The position numbers were made by a program, and so were the translations under genes. A DNA stretch of 49,881 nucleotides from Methanobacteriota archaeon (GTDB lineage Archaea > Thermoplasmatota > Poseidoniia > Poseidoniales > Thalassarchaeaceae): contig BPDA01000008.1 of NCBI GenBank assembly GCA_019654055.1, positions 1 through 49,881 of the forward strand. Direction: 5' to 3'. The notes under the pieces were generated by a model. The model ran no database searches and was not told the origin of the DNA. It worked only from the letters and a program-made list of their open reading frames with translations. This document shows, piece after piece, positions 8,372-36,510 of this stretch (its first letter is position 1; every line of letters begins with the position of its first letter).

Positions 8372-8495
8372 AACGAATGATAGGTTTTGCACATCACTAA
8401 AATATCCTATATTTTTATACATTCGTTCAATATATCAAGAAAATAATGAATATAAGCACAAGAATTAACCAATTACATGTACAAACGAGCGAATG
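8372..8495. promoter_or_regulatory. AT-rich divergent promoter region with three CGAATG motifs
   Basis: This stretch lies between the divergent MFS and glutamate-synthase-like genes and is strikingly AT-rich compared with its surroundings. It holds a long A/T tract at about 8398-8420 (ATATTTTTATAC, TATA-like on both strands). AACGAATG (8372-8379) and CATTCGTT (8420-8427) form a perfect inverted repeat, and GCGAATG recurs at 8489-8495. No gene is seen here. The repeat arms could be operators of a regulator acting on both transcripts. Confidence 0.45.
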
Positions 8496-8540
8496 ATTAT
8501 AGCGCTCTCTCGCACGCCTGTGCGTATTCGGGGGAGCGGG

Positions 8541-10076
8541 ATGTTGGAATCAGCGGCGCACGTTGGTCTGCAGGCAACCGACGGCCCCTTGTCAATGGAC
8601 AAGTTCGGTGCCGAATCAGCTAGGATAGGCAGAGAGGTTGCAGATGGATACCACCGTTATCATATTGATACAGAAGAGGTCGATGACGTTAATCCCCTGC
8701 CACACAGGTTCCTAGTCACGGTCGGCAAGGTCGGTCTGGCGAAGCTAATTTCCAAGGAGGCGTTGACCTACTTCCGGCCTTGGGACCCACATTTCGACGT
8801 GATTCTTTCCAGACCCTGTACCTACGGCGTCTTCTCCGGGCCACTGGGCGGCTTCATTCCAAGGCCGAAGCTGTGCGTGGGGTGCTTGAGGTGTGAGGTC
8901 CAGCACCCTGAGTTCGTGAAGGTCCTGCCCAACCCGGACCTCGCCAAGATGGGAGACTCGTACACGACCCACGGCCACATCGCTGCCATCGACGAGGAAG
9001 CGAAGAAGGGCATGGTCCCGGTCCGCGGTCAGGGTTACAGGGGACGCTTCGGCGGCCCGGGCTTCGACGGCATGCTGACTGACATGTCCGAGATCGTGCG
9101 GCCCAGCAGGGACGGAATCCACGGCCGCGAACTGATTGGCACGGCGGTGGACATCGGGAGCAAGCCGATGCACCTGTCCTTCGACTCCGATGGCAAGCTC
9201 TCGGGGAGCACCCCTGAGATGTTCACCATACAGGTCCCGTTCATCTTCGACCTGCCTCCTGGTAACCTCGAATCAACTAGGTTGGCCGAGGTGGTGGAAT
9301 CGACGAGCAGGGGAATAGACACCCTAGCGTGCCTGGATGCCCACACTGTCGCCAGAAACCGGCTCGACGCGCCCAACGTGGTACCTGTCCTTGACAACGC
9401 CGAGGCATCTCGTGCCTCCGAGTTCCCCCGAGCCCGGCTGATTGAGCTGCGTTCAACACCAGGCAGACCCTGGGGCTGGGACGCGGGCGGATTCGATCTA
9501 GCAAGGGAGGTCAGCGACGCAATCATCGGCATACGCATCCACTTCGAAGAGGGCTGGCAGGACAGGATGACCAAGGCGGTCGAATCGGGGGCCAAGGTGA
9601 TTCACCTGCTGGCTGACCTGCATGGCCGCGGTTCAGACGGCACCTTCGTCACCGAGCTGTTCAAGGAGGCCCACATGCTCCTATTGGAGCAAGGTCGCAG
9701 AGACACTGTGACCCTGCTCGGAGGGGGAGGAATCGTCGGGGCCGACCATGTTCCGAAGGCCATAATCAGCGGTCTTGACGCCGTCGCACTGGACCTGCCT
9801 GTCCTGTTCGCCCTGCAGGGGCGCTCCAATGGCTCACTGAGGCAGCGGGCGAAGGTCGACGGGACACTGCCGAGGGAATTGGATCAGGAGTGGGCGGAGC
9901 AGAGGCTGACCAACCTGTGCGGCTCATGGAGGGACCAGTTGCTCGAGATACTCGGAGCGATGGGGATTCGTGAGGTCCGCAGACTGAGAGGCGAGTTCGG
10001 GCGCTCGATGGTGGTAAGGCACCTCGAGGACGAGGCCTTCGAGGGGATTGCGGGCTACGTCGGAGGTGGTTGCTGA
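8541..10076 (+). CDS. Glutamate-synthase-like FMN-barrel protein with ferredoxin-like CxxCxxC segment (divergent paralogue)
   Basis: This 511-residue protein has the phosphate-binding barrel architecture of the FMN domain of glutamate synthase. The core includes GGPGFDGMLTDMSEIV, HGRELIGTAVDIG, then LLGGGGIVGADHVPKAIISG near the C-terminus, matching the GGV-x-TADDI segment of the next gene. It lacks the usual C-terminal 3Fe-4S cysteine motif. Instead the N-terminal part carries LCVGCLRC, a partial iron-sulfur motif. The start is uncertain: ATG 8541 follows GGGGGAGCGG and gives a compact N-terminus; ATG 8493 is also in frame. The stop overlaps the next gene. Function is inferred only at family level; it may be a second, specialised barrel partnering the following subunit. 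Confidence 0.75.
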   Translation: MLESAAHVGLQATDGPLSMDKFGAESARIGREVADGYHRYHIDTEEVDDVNPLPHRFLVTVGKVGLAKLISKEALTYFRPWDPHFDVILSRPCTYGVFSGPLGGFIPRPKLCVGCLRCEVQHPEFVKVLPNPDLAKMGDSYTTHGHIAAIDEEAKKGMVPVRGQGYRGRFGGPGFDGMLTDMSEIVRPSRDGIHGRELIGTAVDIGSKPMHLSFDSDGKLSGSTPEMFTIQVPFIFDLPPGNLESTRLAEVVESTSRGIDTLACLDAHTVARNRLDAPNVVPVLDNAEASRASEFPRARLIELRSTPGRPWGWDAGGFDLAREVSDAIIGIRIHFEEGWQDRMTKAVESGAKVIHLLADLHGRGSDGTFVTELFKEAHMLLLEQGRRDTVTLLGGGGIVGADHVPKAIISGLDAVALDLPVLFALQGRSNGSLRQRAKVDGTLPRELDQEWAEQRLTNLCGSWRDQLLEILGAMGIREVRRLRGEFGRSMVVRHLEDEAFEGIAGYVGGGC

Positions 10077-11431
10077 TGGCCTTGCTACAAGATCTGATGG
10101 ATGCCTACCAAGGCAAGATTGTGAAGCCTAGCGATGCTCTGCTGCACAAGACTACCACCTTGTTGCAGGATGGGATGAACGCTAGGGCGTTCGGCGAGTT
10201 CGAGAAGCCAAAGGCACTGGGCGACGCGCGCTGGACCGACGAGCTGATTCTCTCCACTTGGTACATGGCGGAGACCGGGGAAGTTCCGGACAAGCTGAAC
10301 TTCAAGACTGGCGAGAGCGACGGTGGCTTCGACAGGCTGGATTTCCAGTTCCTTCAGGAGAGCGATTGGCTCGAACACTCCGAGGCCATCGACACCAAGC
10401 TGCCCTTGAACCGCCGGGGCGATGGTAAGAACGAGATTGAGATTGATATCCCGTGGTACGGCGGAGGCATGTCGTACGGCTCGGTTTCGGTCAACGTGAT
10501 GATGTCAAGAGCTAGGAACGCCAAGCACTGGAACACTCTGATGTCCACTGGCGAGGGTGGCTACCCGCCAGAGCTGTATGAGGTCAAGGAGAGCGTCATC
10601 ACCCAAGTGGCGACCGGTTACTTCGGCGTCGAGGAGGAGACCATCCAAGCGGCCCCGATTATCGAGTTCAAGTACGCTCAGGGCGCGAAGCCCGGACTCG
10701 GTGGCCACCTGCTCGCAGCCAAGGCCGGCGAGGAGGTAGCGAAACTCCGCGGCTCGGTCCCGTTCGTTAGCCTGTTCAGCCCGTTCCCGTTCCACTCGAC
10801 CTACTCGGTCGAAGATCACTCGAAGCATCTCGACTGGATTGAGACGGTCAACCCGAAGGCGCTTCTCTCGGTCAAGGTCAGCACACCTCACGACGTCGAC
10901 ATGGTCGCAGTCGGTTCGTACTATGCCGGGGCACACATCATCCACCTCGACGGTGGCTACGGGGGCACCGGAGCAGCGCCGGAGATAGCGAAGAAGAACA
11001 TCGCCATGCCAATCGAACTCGCAATCCCCAAGGTCCACAAGTTCCTGCAGAAGGAGGGAGTGCGCGACAAGGTCACTCTCATCGCTAGTGGAGGAGTCAG
11101 GACCGCAGACGACATTGCCAAGGCAATCGCGCTCGGCGCCGATGGCTGCGTTCTTGGCACTACAGACCTCGTCGGTATGGGTTGCACCCGCTGTTCCAAC
11201 TGTGAAGGAGGTCCTTCCGGGCGCGGCTGTCCTTGGGGCCTGACCACTACGGACATCGAACTGCAGGAATGGGTGCAGCAGGACTGGGGAGCTAGGAGGC
11301 TCGACAACCTGTACGCCGCATTGCAATGGCGGCTGCGTGACATCCTCCGCAAACTGGGTCTGAGCAACGTTCGTGAGCTGAGGGGCCGTACCGACCTTCT
11401 GAGTTACATTCCGAAGGAGGCGGGCGAATGA
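10076..11431 (+). CDS. Glutamate synthase FMN-domain protein (GltB central/FMN domain, archaeal split form)
   Basis: This is the FMN- and iron-sulfur-containing synthase domain of glutamate synthase as a stand-alone subunit (451 residues). Hallmarks are GGMSYGSVSVNVMMSRAR, GAKPGLGGHLLAAK, VKVSTPHDVDMVAVGS, HLDGGYGGTGAAPEIA, and SGGVRTADDIAKAIALGADG followed by the cysteine motif CTRCSNCEGG with a further cysteine in GRGCPWG. In the family this domain converts 2-oxoglutarate and ammonia to glutamate. The start ATG 10076 overlaps the previous stop (TGATG) and follows GGAGGTGG. Its own stop overlaps the amidotransferase gene (ATGA), so the three genes form one unit. N-methylglutamate synthase subunits share this architecture and are an alternative. 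Confidence 0.88.
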   Translation: MALLQDLMDAYQGKIVKPSDALLHKTTTLLQDGMNARAFGEFEKPKALGDARWTDELILSTWYMAETGEVPDKLNFKTGESDGGFDRLDFQFLQESDWLEHSEAIDTKLPLNRRGDGKNEIEIDIPWYGGGMSYGSVSVNVMMSRARNAKHWNTLMSTGEGGYPPELYEVKESVITQVATGYFGVEEETIQAAPIIEFKYAQGAKPGLGGHLLAAKAGEEVAKLRGSVPFVSLFSPFPFHSTYSVEDHSKHLDWIETVNPKALLSVKVSTPHDVDMVAVGSYYAGAHIIHLDGGYGGTGAAPEIAKKNIAMPIELAIPKVHKFLQKEGVRDKVTLIASGGVRTADDIAKAIALGADGCVLGTTDLVGMGCTRCSNCEGGPSGRGCPWGLTTTDIELQEWVQQDWGARRLDNLYAALQWRLRDILRKLGLSNVRELRGRTDLLSYIPKEAGE

Positions 11432-31815: not shown

Positions 31816-31885
31816 GACCTCGGTTGCACTAGATTCAATAATCGCGTCAGGGTGCCCATACTGCCGGTAGGCGTGAGTGGGCTTC

Positions 31886-33856
31886 ATGGAGATATTCAGC
31901 GTCTTCATCGACGATGGCTGCATCACCTGCGACGCCTGCGAGGAGGCCGCTCCCGATGTCTTTGAGGTCACTGAGGACACCTGCTTCATCAAGCCCGACG
32001 TCAGAGTCGACGGCGGTTACGACCGCAACATCGACAAATCCGGTCTGAAACCAGAGGCGGTTTCCTCACTCTCCGATGACATCTTCGACGCAGCGGACGC
32101 CTGCCCGGTAGATGTCATCATTGTTGTCGAGGGAACTGGGGAGGAGGAGCCTGAGCCAGAAGAGGTGGTAATGTCCGAGCCAGAAGAGGAGGCGGCGCCC
32201 GAGGGTCCCGTGGAGGTCTCGGGCGATGATCTCGATTCGCTACTGACTACAGGGGACCGGACATTGAACATCTTCTTCGGGTCGCAGTCCGGAAACTCGG
32301 AGGAGCTAGCGGCTAAATTTGCCAAACGGGCGAGTGACTACGGGCTGGATGCCACGGTGCACGACATGGATGGGTTCGACTTGGCCTCAATGGCCACGAT
32401 GAAGAGGATACTGATCATCTGCTCGACCTGGGGCGAGGGCGACATGCCCGACAACGCCGAGGAGCTGTGGCAAGAGGCTAGCGCTGACTCGGCCCCCAAG
32501 ATGGGAGACGTCGGCTTCTCGGTGCTGGCGTTGGGAGATAGCAGCTACGAGTTCTACTGCGAGTCCGGCAAGGACTGGGACGAACGTCTGGAGGGATTGG
32601 GAGCCACTCGACTGGTCGAACGCGTCGACTGCGACGTCGACTACGACGCCCCCGCTGCCGCGTGGGCCATCAACGCTCTTGCAGCGATGGCTGCAGTCGA
32701 TGGGAATGGCGAGTTCCACGAGGGACAAGTCGAGGCGATCAAGGACCTAGTCTCCGGTGCTTCGGCTACAGGTGCATCCGGTGATGACGGCTTCTCGGTC
32801 CCCAATACCACGGCTGAGGTAATTCAGGCCGAGATCAGCATCTTCCGCTACGACCCGGTCAGTGCAAGCACCGGCAAGGACACCTGGGTCTGCGCTCTGC
32901 CGGGTCACATGACCGTGCTTGAGTCGCTGAGGATGCTGAAGGAGACCCATGATGGTACCCTGTCGTTCAGGGACGGCCCCAGCGACGACCCGACCACATC
33001 CATATCGGTCAACGGCAGGCTGATTCTGCCCGGCAGCGTCAGGCTGGACTCGGTCGCCCCGATTCGCGACGGTGGGTTGAGGCTGCGCGTAGAGCCCCTG
33101 CCCGCGTTCGACGTCATCCGCGACCTAGTGGTAGACCACTGGCCGCTCGAGAGGGCACGTGAGTCCTCCAAGCCGTGGATGGTCGCGGCGGCCAGGGACG
33201 GCGCCGAGACCTCGCAGGGAGTGATTGGCACAATGGAGGCTTCGACGGCGGACGCCCTGCACTCGTCGACCGACTTCTGCAGCGCACCCCTGCTGCACTC
33301 TTGCTCGGACGCCACTCCTCACGCCGAGGCATACCTCGGCCCAGCCGTGTTGGCACGGACCTGGGCTCGAATCAATGACCCGCGCTCGTCGGTGAGGAGC
33401 ATAACCGAGATGCATGCGGTTATGGACTCCAAGGGCGGCATAAAGGCCGAGACGGACCTAGCCTCGATCCGCCGTCAGAACGCCTCGACCAGAATCATCT
33501 CCGAGGCCCTCCTCGACGCACGGACCTCGACTCTTTCTAGGGATGCCTTCAACGGCCGCCACGGCAAGCACGTATGGTGGTACACATGGTCTGTGAAGAG
33601 CAGCGGCAGAGTCAATGACACAGTTGTCTACAGGCAGGTACTCGGCCCCATGGGGCTGCTCGGGAACCTGTTCTCTGGCGTCACTGCCCGGATGGTTCTC
33701 GGTTTCACCAGGACAGGTGGAAACGTGTTCAACGGCATGCTCGGGATGGTGGCTCCTCCCGCCGGCATCGGGAAGATGCCCAAGCAGTTCAACTCCTCCG
33801 TCGACGACCACCACGAGGTCGTCGCGATTTTCAACGAAGTGGATGGTAGGTTCTGA
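31886..33856 (+). CDS. Ferredoxin-flavodoxin-SdhB-like fusion protein with lost SdhB iron-sulfur ligands
   Basis: Three domains lie in 656 residues. Residues 1-75 are a single-cluster ferredoxin with CITCDAC and the partner cysteine in ADACPVDV. After an acidic linker comes a flavodoxin (about 128-275): FFGSQSGNSEELAAKF binds FMN phosphate, then STWGEGDMPDN and LALGDSSYEFYC. From about 305 the protein follows the iron-sulfur subunit of succinate dehydrogenase (SISVNGRLILPG, AYLGPAVLARTWARINDPRS), but the ligand cysteines are replaced: the 2Fe-2S stretch reads FRDGPSDDPTTS and the later cysteine sets are reduced to isolated residues. The last 100 residues are unassigned. GTG 31877 is an alternative start. 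The stop overlaps the next gene (TGATG). A soluble electron-transfer role is inferred. Confidence 0.8.
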   Translation: MEIFSVFIDDGCITCDACEEAAPDVFEVTEDTCFIKPDVRVDGGYDRNIDKSGLKPEAVSSLSDDIFDAADACPVDVIIVVEGTGEEEPEPEEVVMSEPEEEAAPEGPVEVSGDDLDSLLTTGDRTLNIFFGSQSGNSEELAAKFAKRASDYGLDATVHDMDGFDLASMATMKRILIICSTWGEGDMPDNAEELWQEASADSAPKMGDVGFSVLALGDSSYEFYCESGKDWDERLEGLGATRLVERVDCDVDYDAPAAAWAINALAAMAAVDGNGEFHEGQVEAIKDLVSGASATGASGDDGFSVPNTTAEVIQAEISIFRYDPVSASTGKDTWVCALPGHMTVLESLRMLKETHDGTLSFRDGPSDDPTTSISVNGRLILPGSVRLDSVAPIRDGGLRLRVEPLPAFDVIRDLVVDHWPLERARESSKPWMVAAARDGAETSQGVIGTMEASTADALHSSTDFCSAPLLHSCSDATPHAEAYLGPAVLARTWARINDPRSSVRSITEMHAVMDSKGGIKAETDLASIRRQNASTRIISEALLDARTSTLSRDAFNGRHGKHVWWYTWSVKSSGRVNDTVVYRQVLGPMGLLGNLFSGVTARMVLGFTRTGGNVFNGMLGMVAPPAGIGKMPKQFNSSVDDHHEVVAIFNEVDGRF

Positions 33857-34716
33857 TGCCCCTGAAGTACGCCTACCACCCCGGAAATGTGTCCCACAGC
33901 AGTGCCACCGAGGTGGCAGAGACGATGGAACCGGTAGCACGCTCATTGGGCATCGAACTGGTTCCTCTGGATGGTGCCACCAGCTGCGGAGCCGGCATAA
34001 TCAAGCAGGCCAGCAGACGCCTCCAGCTGACCCTTAACGCACGCACCTTCTCGATGGCCGAGGAAATGGGTCTCGACATCATCACACCATGTGCCGCGAC
34101 CGCGGGCAACCTGAAGGAAGACCTCGCTACACTGAAGGAGGACCCGAACCTGCTCGGGGAGATCAACGAGACCTTGGAGAGGACATGTGGCAGGAGGTTC
34201 TCGGGCGACACACACGTCCACCACCTCCTGCACGTCATCGTCGAGGAGGTCGGAATCGAGAGACTAGAATCGGAGGTGAGGAACCCGATTGACTTCGATG
34301 TCGCTGGGTTCTACGGTCCCAATATCCAGCAGGCCGGGGCCTGCGGGGACGACGACGTCCACGACCCCGAGTACCTCGAGCTGATTATCGACGCGCTTGG
34401 TGGGAGGTCGGTGCAGTGGGAGGGGCGCACCCAGAGCGTCGGAGTCCCAGGACTCTTCTCCGAGGAGCCTACAGTGCTGAGGCAGGCAGCCGCGGTGCTC
34501 CACGAGGCTAAGTCCGAGGGCGCAGACCTCATCGTGAGCGCTTGCAACCTCTCTCACACTGTCCTCGACATCTACCAAGGTAAGGCATCGAGGTCGACTG
34601 GGCTGGCCACCAACATCCCAGTTATACACCTCACGGAGATGCTTTCTTTCTCTATGGGGCACCACAACACTAGGCTGGCGCAATTGCGCACTAGAATTGC
34701 GGTAATCGGCGACTGA
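33856..34716 (+). CDS. HdrB/SdhE-like (CCG-domain) protein with most cluster cysteines lost
   Basis: This 286-residue protein has the fold of heterodisulfide reductase subunit B and of SdhE of archaeal succinate dehydrogenases. It shows YAYHPGNVSHSSA, MGLDIITPCAATAGNL, DVAGFYGPNIQQ, YLELIIDALGG and LIVSACNLSHTVLD. In the family these places read PGC, CCGA, CAAC, YGC, CCGA and CPLC and hold non-cubane 4Fe-4S clusters. Here the first is N, CCGA is SCGA, CAAC is CAAT, YGC is YGP, the second CCG is VGVPG and CPLC is CNLS. Cluster binding is therefore doubtful. Translation is coupled to the SdhB-like fusion, so the two probably form a complex that resembles an Sdh/Hdr pair but works without those clusters. 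Confidence 0.82.
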   Translation: MPLKYAYHPGNVSHSSATEVAETMEPVARSLGIELVPLDGATSCGAGIIKQASRRLQLTLNARTFSMAEEMGLDIITPCAATAGNLKEDLATLKEDPNLLGEINETLERTCGRRFSGDTHVHHLLHVIVEEVGIERLESEVRNPIDFDVAGFYGPNIQQAGACGDDDVHDPEYLELIIDALGGRSVQWEGRTQSVGVPGLFSEEPTVLRQAAAVLHEAKSEGADLIVSACNLSHTVLDIYQGKASRSTGLATNIPVIHLTEMLSFSMGHHNTRLAQLRTRIAVIGD

Positions 34717-34755: not shown

Positions 34756-36510
34756 CTATTCTTCGACGCCAAACTGCTCCAGCCCAGTCTGCCCCTTGGC
34801 TCTGAATGTCTCTGGGGGAAGAGCGGAAGGGCTACTGTTCTCCGTGGCCTCGCTGTCGTCAGACTCGTTGATTTCCACCCTGTGCATCTCCCGCTGTTCG
34901 GAAACGAACTCCGATGCTCGGACAGAACTCCCCTCGGAGAACACCTCGAATCTGCCTAGGTTCGAGAGGTCCCTGTGATGGCTGCGAGGCAGTTTCCTGC
35001 TGACCCTGTGCACGGCCCGCTGCATGAACCCCTCACGCCTCTCGGCGGATGCCCTAGCACCCTCGTCCCGGGTGCCCTCCGCAATCAGGACGACGACCTC
35101 ACCCTCCCTGTGCCTACCCGTACGCCCCCGCCTCTGTATGGTTCGTATCTCGCTGGACACCGGCTCATAGAATACGACCAGATCGGCACTGGGGATGTCC
35201 AGACCCTCCTCCCCGACGGAGGTCGCTACCAAGACGTTGGCCCCACCAGACCTGAACTCGTCGAGCCTAGCGATCTGTTGCTTGGGGGTAAGTCCACCAC
35301 TGCCATCTCGGCTGGACTGCCCAATGAATTGAATCGGACGAATCCCCTCCAGCTCACTGAGGGACTCATCGACGGCGGCGACGGTGTCTCTGAACGTGGC
35401 GAACACGATGACGCGCGAGCCGGAGTCTCTGCGAAACCTCTCCGAGACCAGCCTGCGCACAGCGCCCACTTTGCTGTGAACCTCTTCCATCTCCGACAGA
35501 CTCACTCGAAGGCTAGACACCCTCCTGTCCCTCAGGAAGTCACGCGTCGACTTGTTCTGGGACTGCTCGCTTCTGGAGAGGCGCTCGAGGAACTCCCTTG
35601 AGGCGGCGACGCCTTGGCAAAGCAGGTGGTTAATCAGATGATGCAAGCGCATCGCCGTGGCTATCCTCGATACCGACTGGTAGGCGCTGGATTCGCCCCG
35701 AGATATCGCTTGCTGGGCCCGTTCCATCGCATTGGAGAGGCCGGCGTGACCGATGGCGCCCGGCATCACGTATCTGCCGAGCCGTCTCTCGCGATCGACG
35801 ATCCCGCTCTGCCATATCACGAAGGGTTCCGCAAGTTCCCTGATCCGGTCCGGAACCTCGACCTTGATCTCCTGCACCTCCAGTCCAGCGAGGTGCTTGG
35901 CCACCATCGCATCGCCACCAGTCCTGATGTGGATTCTACCTATACCCAGATGATTGCAGACCTCCTCAACCTGATCGGTCCTCGATCCCGGACTCGCCGT
36001 GGTGGCTAGGACGAGGGGTTCGGAGGCCTGCGACAGATACAGGTCGCCGACCTGCGCCATTGCGTGGTCGCCCGTGGAGTGATGCGCCTCGTCAACCACC
36101 AGCAGGGCACAGCCAGAGAGGTCTAAGACTCCTCTAATGACATCGTTCCTGACAACCTGGGGCGTGGCTACCACGAGCCTAGAAGAGCCCCATAGATCAG
36201 CGCGCTTGGCCACTGGGTTCTGCCCCGTAATGGATATCGGGTTTACCGAAGCGGCGTCAGCCAGCACGGGCTCGATGCCACGCAGGTGCTGCTCTACCAG
36301 AGCGACAGTCGGAGCGACGACCAAGACCCACCCGTCGCTGCTTTCCAACCGGTCGGCTAACACCATCCAGGCCACCACTGTCTTACCAGCTGCGGTGGGT
36401 AGTACCAGCATCGTCGAGCCGGAGAGCGCCTCGTCCGCCGCCTCGAGCTGGTAGGCACGCGCCTCGATTACCCCCGGGGTGAGACTCGGATGGCTTATTC
36501 CGTACCGCAT
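34756..36510 (-). CDS. Hef/FANCM-type superfamily 2 helicase (no nuclease domain)
   Basis: This 584-residue helicase is related to archaeal Hef, Mph1 and FANCM, which remodel stalled replication forks. Motif I is LVLPTAAGKTVVA, motif II is VVDEAHH, motif III is ATTASPG, followed by the helical insertion typical of the Hef family (about residues 215-345). Motifs IV to VI are present: VIVFATFRDTV, VLVATSVGEEGLDIPSADLV and QRRGRTGR. Hef often carries a C-terminal XPF-like nuclease; here the protein ends about 80 residues after motif VI with a basic then acidic tail. The nuclease is therefore absent, as in the Thermoplasma-type arrangement where it is a separate gene. It diverges from the ribosomal block and converges on the HdrB-like gene. 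Confidence 0.88.
   Translation of the reverse strand: MRYGISHPSLTPGVIEARAYQLEAADEALSGSTMLVLPTAAGKTVVAWMVLADRLESSDGWVLVVAPTVALVEQHLRGIEPVLADAASVNPISITGQNPVAKRADLWGSSRLVVATPQVVRNDVIRGVLDLSGCALLVVDEAHHSTGDHAMAQVGDLYLSQASEPLVLATTASPGSRTDQVEEVCNHLGIGRIHIRTGGDAMVAKHLAGLEVQEIKVEVPDRIRELAEPFVIWQSGIVDRERRLGRYVMPGAIGHAGLSNAMERAQQAISRGESSAYQSVSRIATAMRLHHLINHLLCQGVAASREFLERLSRSEQSQNKSTRDFLRDRRVSSLRVSLSEMEEVHSKVGAVRRLVSERFRRDSGSRVIVFATFRDTVAAVDESLSELEGIRPIQFIGQSSRDGSGGLTPKQQIARLDEFRSGGANVLVATSVGEEGLDIPSADLVVFYEPVSSEIRTIQRRGRTGRHREGEVVVLIAEGTRDEGARASAERREGFMQRAVHRVSRKLPRSHHRDLSNLGRFEVFSEGSSVRASEFVSEQREMHRVEINESDDSEATENSSPSALPPETFRAKGQTGLEQFGVEE

Follow-up and report, generated by a model that had tools for sequence, protein, structure and literature searches.

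Two adjacent genes encoding SdhB-like and SdhE-like proteins

We analysed a 49,881-nucleotide stretch of DNA (the window; GCA_019654055.1, contig BPDA01000008.1) from a metagenome-assembled genome (MAG) of the archaeal order Poseidoniales, 73 % complete and nearest, among named relatives, to Candidatus Thalassarchaeum. Two overlapping genes on its plus strand are the subject here, one encoding a ferredoxin, a flavodoxin and an SdhB-like domain (31877-33856, 659 amino acids) and one encoding an HdrB/SdhE-like protein recognised by family, structure and orthologue matches (33856-34716, 286 amino acids). The TGA stop codon of the first (33854-33856) shares one base with the ATG of the second. Both proteins retain the folds of their families and have lost most of the cysteines that hold iron-sulfur (Fe-S) clusters in those families.

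The upstream protein begins with a single-cluster [4Fe-4S]-type ferredoxin domain (31907-32122; Fer4_13, E = 4e-7) in which the CxxCxxC...CP pattern is intact, followed by a CysJ-type flavodoxin domain for flavin mononucleotide (FMN) at 32270-32644 (Flavodoxin_1, E = 1e-31). The flavodoxin scores 110.6 bits against a PF00258 cut-off of 25, has the conserved FMN loops SQSGN, STWGEG and LGDSSYEFYC, and finds its best family in TIGR01931 (cysJ), matching the FMN part of that model (E = 3e-42, model positions 60-204 of 597). The rest of the chain (32822-33853) matches Fer2_3 (E = 2e-8) and SdhB families and ends in a conserved C-terminal tail. Alignments place FRDGPSDDPTTSISVNGRL (32966-33022) at the former [2Fe-2S] loop, where SdhB has CxxxxCGxC...C, and DFCSAPLLHSCSDATPHAEAYLGP (33272-33343) at the former first cysteine cluster motif of the helical domain, where the aligned ligand columns are cysteine-free in 130 sequences. 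Across the 130 distinct Poseidoniales loci compared here, cysteine is found in the canonical SdhB cluster columns in only 5/130, at a single column. The domain lacks the cysteine ligands of the [2Fe-2S], [4Fe-4S] and [3Fe-4S] clusters, in agreement with an earlier note, made from the window sequence, that both partners are without cluster ligands.

For the 286-amino-acid protein, profile matches to HdrB (TIGR03288, E = 7e-39) and SdhE (NF042965, E = 3e-34) and a phmmer match to HdrB structures (E = 6e-33) identify a homolog of SdhE/HdrB rather than a chance resemblance; the scores lie under the curated full-family cut-offs (119 of 500 bits for NF042965, 134 of 345 bits for TIGR03288). An AlphaFold model built with 63 homologues (mean predicted local distance difference test, pLDDT, 92.7; predicted template modelling score, pTM, 0.90) has the two-domain CCG fold of SdhE/HdrB, and Foldseek superposes it on methanogen HdrB (8rvy/5odc) with a template modelling (TM) score of 0.89 at 28-29 % identity.

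Seven of the ten cluster-ligand positions in this protein are altered. At the N-terminal site the motifs read HPGN (residues 8-11), TSCGA (42-46) and PCAAT (78-82), so that the five-cysteine set C11, C43, C44, C79 and C82 is reduced to NSCCT. The first former ligand (PGN, C11N; 33880-33888) is N in 112/130 loci and C in 18/130, and is C in both outgroups. The former CCG motif (SCGA, C43S; 33982-33993) keeps C44 in the window, where 28 relatives have D, and the former CxxC motif (CAAT; 34090-34101) has lost C82 and keeps C79, which is present in 129/130. The C-terminal site reads FYGP (152-155), SVGVPG (194-199) and ACNLSH (229-234). Its first ligand region (YGP; 34312-34320) is degenerate in 57/57 orthologues inspected, the former CCG (SVGVPG; 34435-34452) has S194 in 130/130 and V195 in 126/130, and in the former CxxC (CNLS; 34543-34554) the second cysteine is S or A in all loci, leaving C230 (130/130) as the sole remaining C-terminal ligand throughout. 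Re-reading and alignment reproduced exactly the degenerate motif letters that the earlier note had listed, and the confident model and its close superposition on HdrB bear out its view that the fold is maintained.

The SdhB-like part was modelled together with the SdhE-like part as a read-through chain of an in-frame orthologue, with the stop codon set as glycine and 34 sequences (pLDDT 79, pTM 0.67; the SdhB tail is poorly predicted). In this model the SdhB fold, a Fer2-like plus a helical domain, is recovered with a Foldseek TM of 0.85 to FrdB/SdhB (6awf_F/1nek_B). The chain also aligns over 653 columns to a single chain, PDB 3kwl (TMt 0.68), a match that favours, without proving, a packing of the two gene products against each other. 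3kwl itself is possibly an independent case of an architecture combining SdhB-like and SdhE-like parts. Translational read-through between the genes was considered and rejected: the spacer with its in-frame TGA resembles an ordinary stop followed by a Shine-Dalgarno-like stretch. We also observed one gene fusion (L033:4871-7834; L173), from the MAG REDSEA-S11_B3N4, where a short deletion joins the SdhB-like and SdhE-like genes into one open reading frame (ORF); it is either genuine or an artefact of assembly.

Conservation of the pair and order of cluster loss

Orthologues of the SdhE-like gene were found in 255/293 genomes of the order and those of the SdhB-like gene in 254/293, and each is present in 35/35 of the high-quality genomes (≥ 90 % complete, ≤ 5 % contaminated). 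An apparent absence from genus g11 was discounted, the SdhB-like gene being truncated there by a contig end. In 20/20 loci examined the gene order is thermosome > SdhB-like > SdhE-like < helicase > rpl3. Within the genus, the ratio of nonsynonymous to synonymous substitution rates (dN/dS, NG86) lies at 0.02-0.10 in the SdhE-like gene and at 0.01-0.06 in the SdhB-like gene; the neighbouring helicase (0.04-0.11) and the thermosome gene (0.01-0.03) have comparable values. The pair consists of maintained core genes and is no relic. The earlier note had proposed a repurposed complex rather than decay, and had named relaxed selection and frequent loss of one partner as the signs that would speak against it: dN/dS stays between 0.01 and 0.10, partner loss reduces to the contig end in g11, and universal presence in high-quality genomes, constant synteny and the kept fold support repurposing.

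The nearest outgroup, family f6 of the phylum, carries an ordinary SdhA-SdhB-SdhE operon with every motif intact, and seven genomes of the same class from family f3, which we take to be Marine Group III, gave no match to the pair at 1e-8. No SdhA gene accompanies the pair in any of 20/20 loci, whereas one is present in the outgroup operons. Canonical SdhA/SdhB genes occur elsewhere in Poseidoniales genomes (G000:C6:15862-16605; L257:13071-15691), and the pair is therefore a separate copy. Taken with the outgroup operon, this leads us to regard the pair, as the best interpretation of the gene content, as the B and E subunits that remained of an SdhABE enzyme when the flavoprotein gene left the locus.

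The two non-cubane sites of the SdhE-like protein have different histories. The C-terminal CCG site is broken in 130/130 loci, while the N-terminal five-cysteine set is complete in 17/130, which belong to genera g16, g17, g19, g21 and g22 of the other family and to g6 of the window's own family; one further locus (L049) is complete except for C79. In the window's family 84 loci have NSCCT at these positions, and in the other family 28 loci have N[SG]DC[SA]. Both lineages share the changes C11 to N and C43 to S (G in two loci), with C79 unchanged. The order indicated by these alignments is that the SdhB sites and the C-terminal CCG site were lost first, before the Poseidoniales radiation, and the N-terminal CCG site later. 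The latter was probably lost twice. An approximately unbiased (AU) test on the gene data gave no formal rejection of a single loss (p = 0.127 with the outgroup, p = 0.084 without it); we favour two losses, the number that the tree requires, because g6, with its intact site, shares the window's family in the whole-genome classification, which a single loss would contradict, and groups with the window in the gene tree. The "parallel loss" of the earlier note has to be amended: throughout the order the C-terminal CCG site is gone and so are the SdhB sites, but the losses were not simultaneous. Intact motifs in near relatives, which that note would have counted against its proposal, do exist for the N-terminal CCG site (17/130); the C-terminal site and the SdhB-like domain have none.

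Three observations concern the surroundings of the pair. The neighbouring helicase (34756-36510 in the window) varies between genera from about 580 to about 990 amino acids (L034, L035, L043, L247), the longer forms having extra sequence. Many MAG contigs start about 17-18 kb downstream of the pair, on its ribosomal-protein side (minus-strand matches at about 17.0-18.9 kb, equivalent to about 51-52 kb on the window's numbering), which suggests a recurrent assembly break, for example at an rRNA or variable region. Further away in the window (8493-11428), a glutamate-synthase FMN-domain protein (10070-11428) adjoins a 527-amino-acid ORF without a Pfam match. A search of phage records gave no match.

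Exchange of carrier modules and a separate CysJ half

The N-terminus of the SdhB-like gene carries a ferredoxin first in 69 of the 130 loci, two flavodoxins in 46 and a flavodoxin only in 15. Well-supported branches require the ferredoxin to have been gained or lost at least 15 times; its ligand pattern is intact in 68/68 loci with the domain, and the FMN loops of the flavodoxins are conserved across orthologues. The flavodoxin tree does not unite the N-terminal flavodoxins in a single clade and requires at least six label changes, and therefore second flavodoxins were gained or exchanged several times. All 17 loci with an intact N-terminal site (17/17) retain ferredoxin, and 61/130 loci have no complete Fe-S ligand set across both genes. 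One architecture was seen once among the 130 loci, a ferredoxin-SdhB-like fusion without flavodoxin (L133:2601-4858; also L011, genome G019).

That flavodoxin can take the place of ferredoxin when iron is scarce is well established for whole genes (PMC10287166, PMC5322553). What the alignments and trees indicate here is a repeated ferredoxin/flavodoxin swap at the level of domains on one scaffold, of which iron sparing may be the cause.

CysJ normally carries its FMN domain and its flavin adenine dinucleotide (FAD) domain on one chain. In Poseidoniales the CysJ-type FMN part lies in the SdhB-like fusion, and a reductase with the FAD half, which would also bind reduced nicotinamide adenine dinucleotide phosphate (NADPH), is encoded by a separate gene. 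PF00175 reductases were found in 18/18 Poseidoniales genomes, one in each, with a second weak match in G017. The two examined at full length consist of FAD_binding_1 and NAD_binding_1 with no flavodoxin domain (TIGR01931, E = 1e-121) and align to 1ddg, a fragment of the flavoprotein of E. coli sulfite reductase, with the C-terminal RDVY inside the alignment. Stand-alone halves are located at L253:691-1938 (+), L256:11352-12410 (+) and L257:8525-9754 (-). Orthologues were confirmed in further genomes, and the copy in the window's own genome is a shorter ORF.

Possible function and relation to known systems

The pair is likely to be a maintained, cluster-free scaffold for electron carriers, and for the complete explanation that follows we estimate a probability of about 0.5. 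We infer from homology and gene arrangement that the SdhB-like and SdhE-like proteins form a complex, namely a heterodimer whose two halves go back to SdhB and SdhE of a complex-II-like archaeal enzyme, SdhA-SdhB-SdhE. Before the Poseidoniales radiation the SdhA gene would have gone from the locus, together with the cluster sites in SdhB and the C-terminal one of the two non-cubane sites; the N-terminal non-cubane site would have followed, probably in two lineages. Electron transfer would have shifted to exchangeable modules fused to the N-terminus of the SdhB-like protein, namely a [4Fe-4S] ferredoxin and either one flavodoxin of the CysJ type or two. NADPH may reduce the stand-alone CysJ-type FAD reductase encoded elsewhere, which would pass electrons to the FMN of the fused flavodoxin and, where present, on to the ferredoxin. 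In a putative last step the carriers would reduce an acceptor that the SdhB/SdhE-like scaffold either binds or holds in position. We propose the CysJ half as donor to the fused flavodoxin tentatively, at somewhat less than even odds. Candidate acceptors are the assimilatory sulfite reductase or a thiol/disulfide handled through the retained C79 and C230. Assimilatory sulfite reduction is reported to be a core trait of Marine Group II (MGII; PMC6336850). Sulfite reductase as the acceptor appears unlikely.

Several points weigh against this explanation. No neighbouring gene, experiment or multimer prediction points to an acceptor. The case for an association of the two proteins consists of their gene order, the overlap by one base, their co-occurrence and their homology; the sole fusion of the two genes comes from the single REDSEA-S11_B3N4 assembly. 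The CysJ FAD half is also present in three family f3 genomes without the pair, and is not exclusive to it.

A first alternative is that the SdhE-like protein is itself catalytic, with C79 and C230 acting on a substrate, such as a disulfide or persulfide, bound in what was the HdrB pocket and the fused flavodoxin or ferredoxin serving as reductant. These two cysteines, one from each former site, hardly vary, in contrast to C11, C43, C82 and the other ligand positions of the C-terminal site, which are variable or gone. The disulfide substrate of HdrB sits between its two clusters (PMC5861303). C44, however, is also kept in one lineage, and such conservation can be structural. Among 63 aligned members 31 weakly match the Asp/Glu racemase model PF01177 (best E = 3e-5); among ten proteins listed singly the match occurs only in those without the N-terminal site, and in none of the three N-intact or five canonical proteins. 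Foldseek also returns racemases (E about 7e-4), though with a TM of only 0.3, and every racemase match examined in detail lies below the Pfam cut-off (19.6 of 31 bits for the window protein). The similarity agrees with a thiol site but is not strong enough to claim one, and we regard this enzyme as unlikely, at perhaps one chance in a handful. A shade less likely still is the fuller version, an order-wide MGII core module for electron transfer in which the subunits of an Fe-S respiratory enzyme lost their clusters stepwise and received interchangeable ferredoxin and flavodoxin modules, the latter being the FMN half of a split CysJ. Some forms would have ended up without any Fe-S site, and the thiols left in the former HdrB pocket would make up a new active site to which flavodoxin delivers electrons from NADPH.

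On a par with the two-thiol enzyme, and similarly unlikely, is a membrane or protein anchor, a dimer that only tethers the carriers, much as SdhE anchors type-E complex II, and has no chemistry of its own, the flavodoxin and ferredoxin passing electrons directly to a respiratory or biosynthetic partner. The SdhE relative is called a membrane anchor subunit in NCBIfam NF042965, the fold was kept despite cluster loss and the carrier modules swap freely, but an anchor leaves the near-invariance of C79 and C230 unexplained. We consider it improbable that the proteins are accessory subunits of canonical complex II or of another flavoprotein, with the SdhB-like domain still docking an SdhA-type flavoprotein by way of its conserved surface and the fused carriers replacing the Fe-S wire. 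The SdhB signature segments FRYDP, RDLxVD, YLGP and DPR are indeed among the best-conserved columns, but none of the 20 loci has SdhA and no dedicated SdhA paralogue was resolved, further PF02910 matches being weaker. That the pair is the decaying relic of a complex II copy since lost, as the missing ligands and the canonical succinate dehydrogenase elsewhere in the genome might suggest, was rejected as highly improbable because dN/dS is far below 1 and both genes are retained in all high-quality genomes, and the FMN and ferredoxin motifs and the fold are intact.

If the pair is a carrier scaffold as proposed, an iron-rich electron wire has seemingly been turned into a platform for carriers that is itself largely free of iron. 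It is unusual for a whole scaffold to be stripped of Fe-S clusters and yet remain universal and strongly selected, with intermediate stages surviving in living relatives. Marine Group II archaea are very abundant and uncultured, and the recurrent change from ferredoxin to flavodoxin within one gene offers a natural experiment on iron sparing in an iron-poor ocean. The split CysJ further predicts an unrecognised NADPH-linked electron route in Poseidoniales.

No paper on the pair was found in the open-access literature searched. The pair lacks the cluster features by which SdhB, SdhE and HdrB are defined, and we therefore treat it not as a member of these families but as a derived variant. It shares with type-E succinate:quinone oxidoreductase and methylmenaquinol:fumarate reductase (SdhABE; NF042965, TIGR00384) adjacent SdhB- and SdhE-type genes in the same order and with the same folds, an adjacency also seen in the SdhABE outgroup operon; unlike these enzymes it has no SdhA at the locus and no SdhB clusters, has lost the C-terminal CCG site in all loci and the N-terminal one in most, and bears fused ferredoxin and flavodoxin modules. 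The SdhE-like protein has the HdrB fold, but in contrast to HdrB/HdrC both non-cubane ligand sets are broken in the window's form, no HdrA is present at the locus and the partner is SdhB-like rather than a short HdrC. SdhB-type and HdrB-type modules are also combined in TfrB of thiol:fumarate reductase (NF004898), which is one chain with cluster ligands, whereas the pair comprises two chains with a cluster-free SdhB part and fused carriers. The uncharacterised Helicobacter pylori protein 3kwl covers the SdhB-like plus SdhE-like model in a single chain, at only 12 % identity. The fused flavodoxin is nearest to the FMN domain of CysJ, whose FAD/NADPH half exists here as a separate gene; CysJ is a single polypeptide, whereas here a scaffold descended from SdhB carries the FMN half. 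The parts belong to known families; their combination, a cluster-free SdhB-SdhE pair with swapping fused ferredoxins and flavodoxins and a split CysJ, did not turn up in the open-access literature searched.

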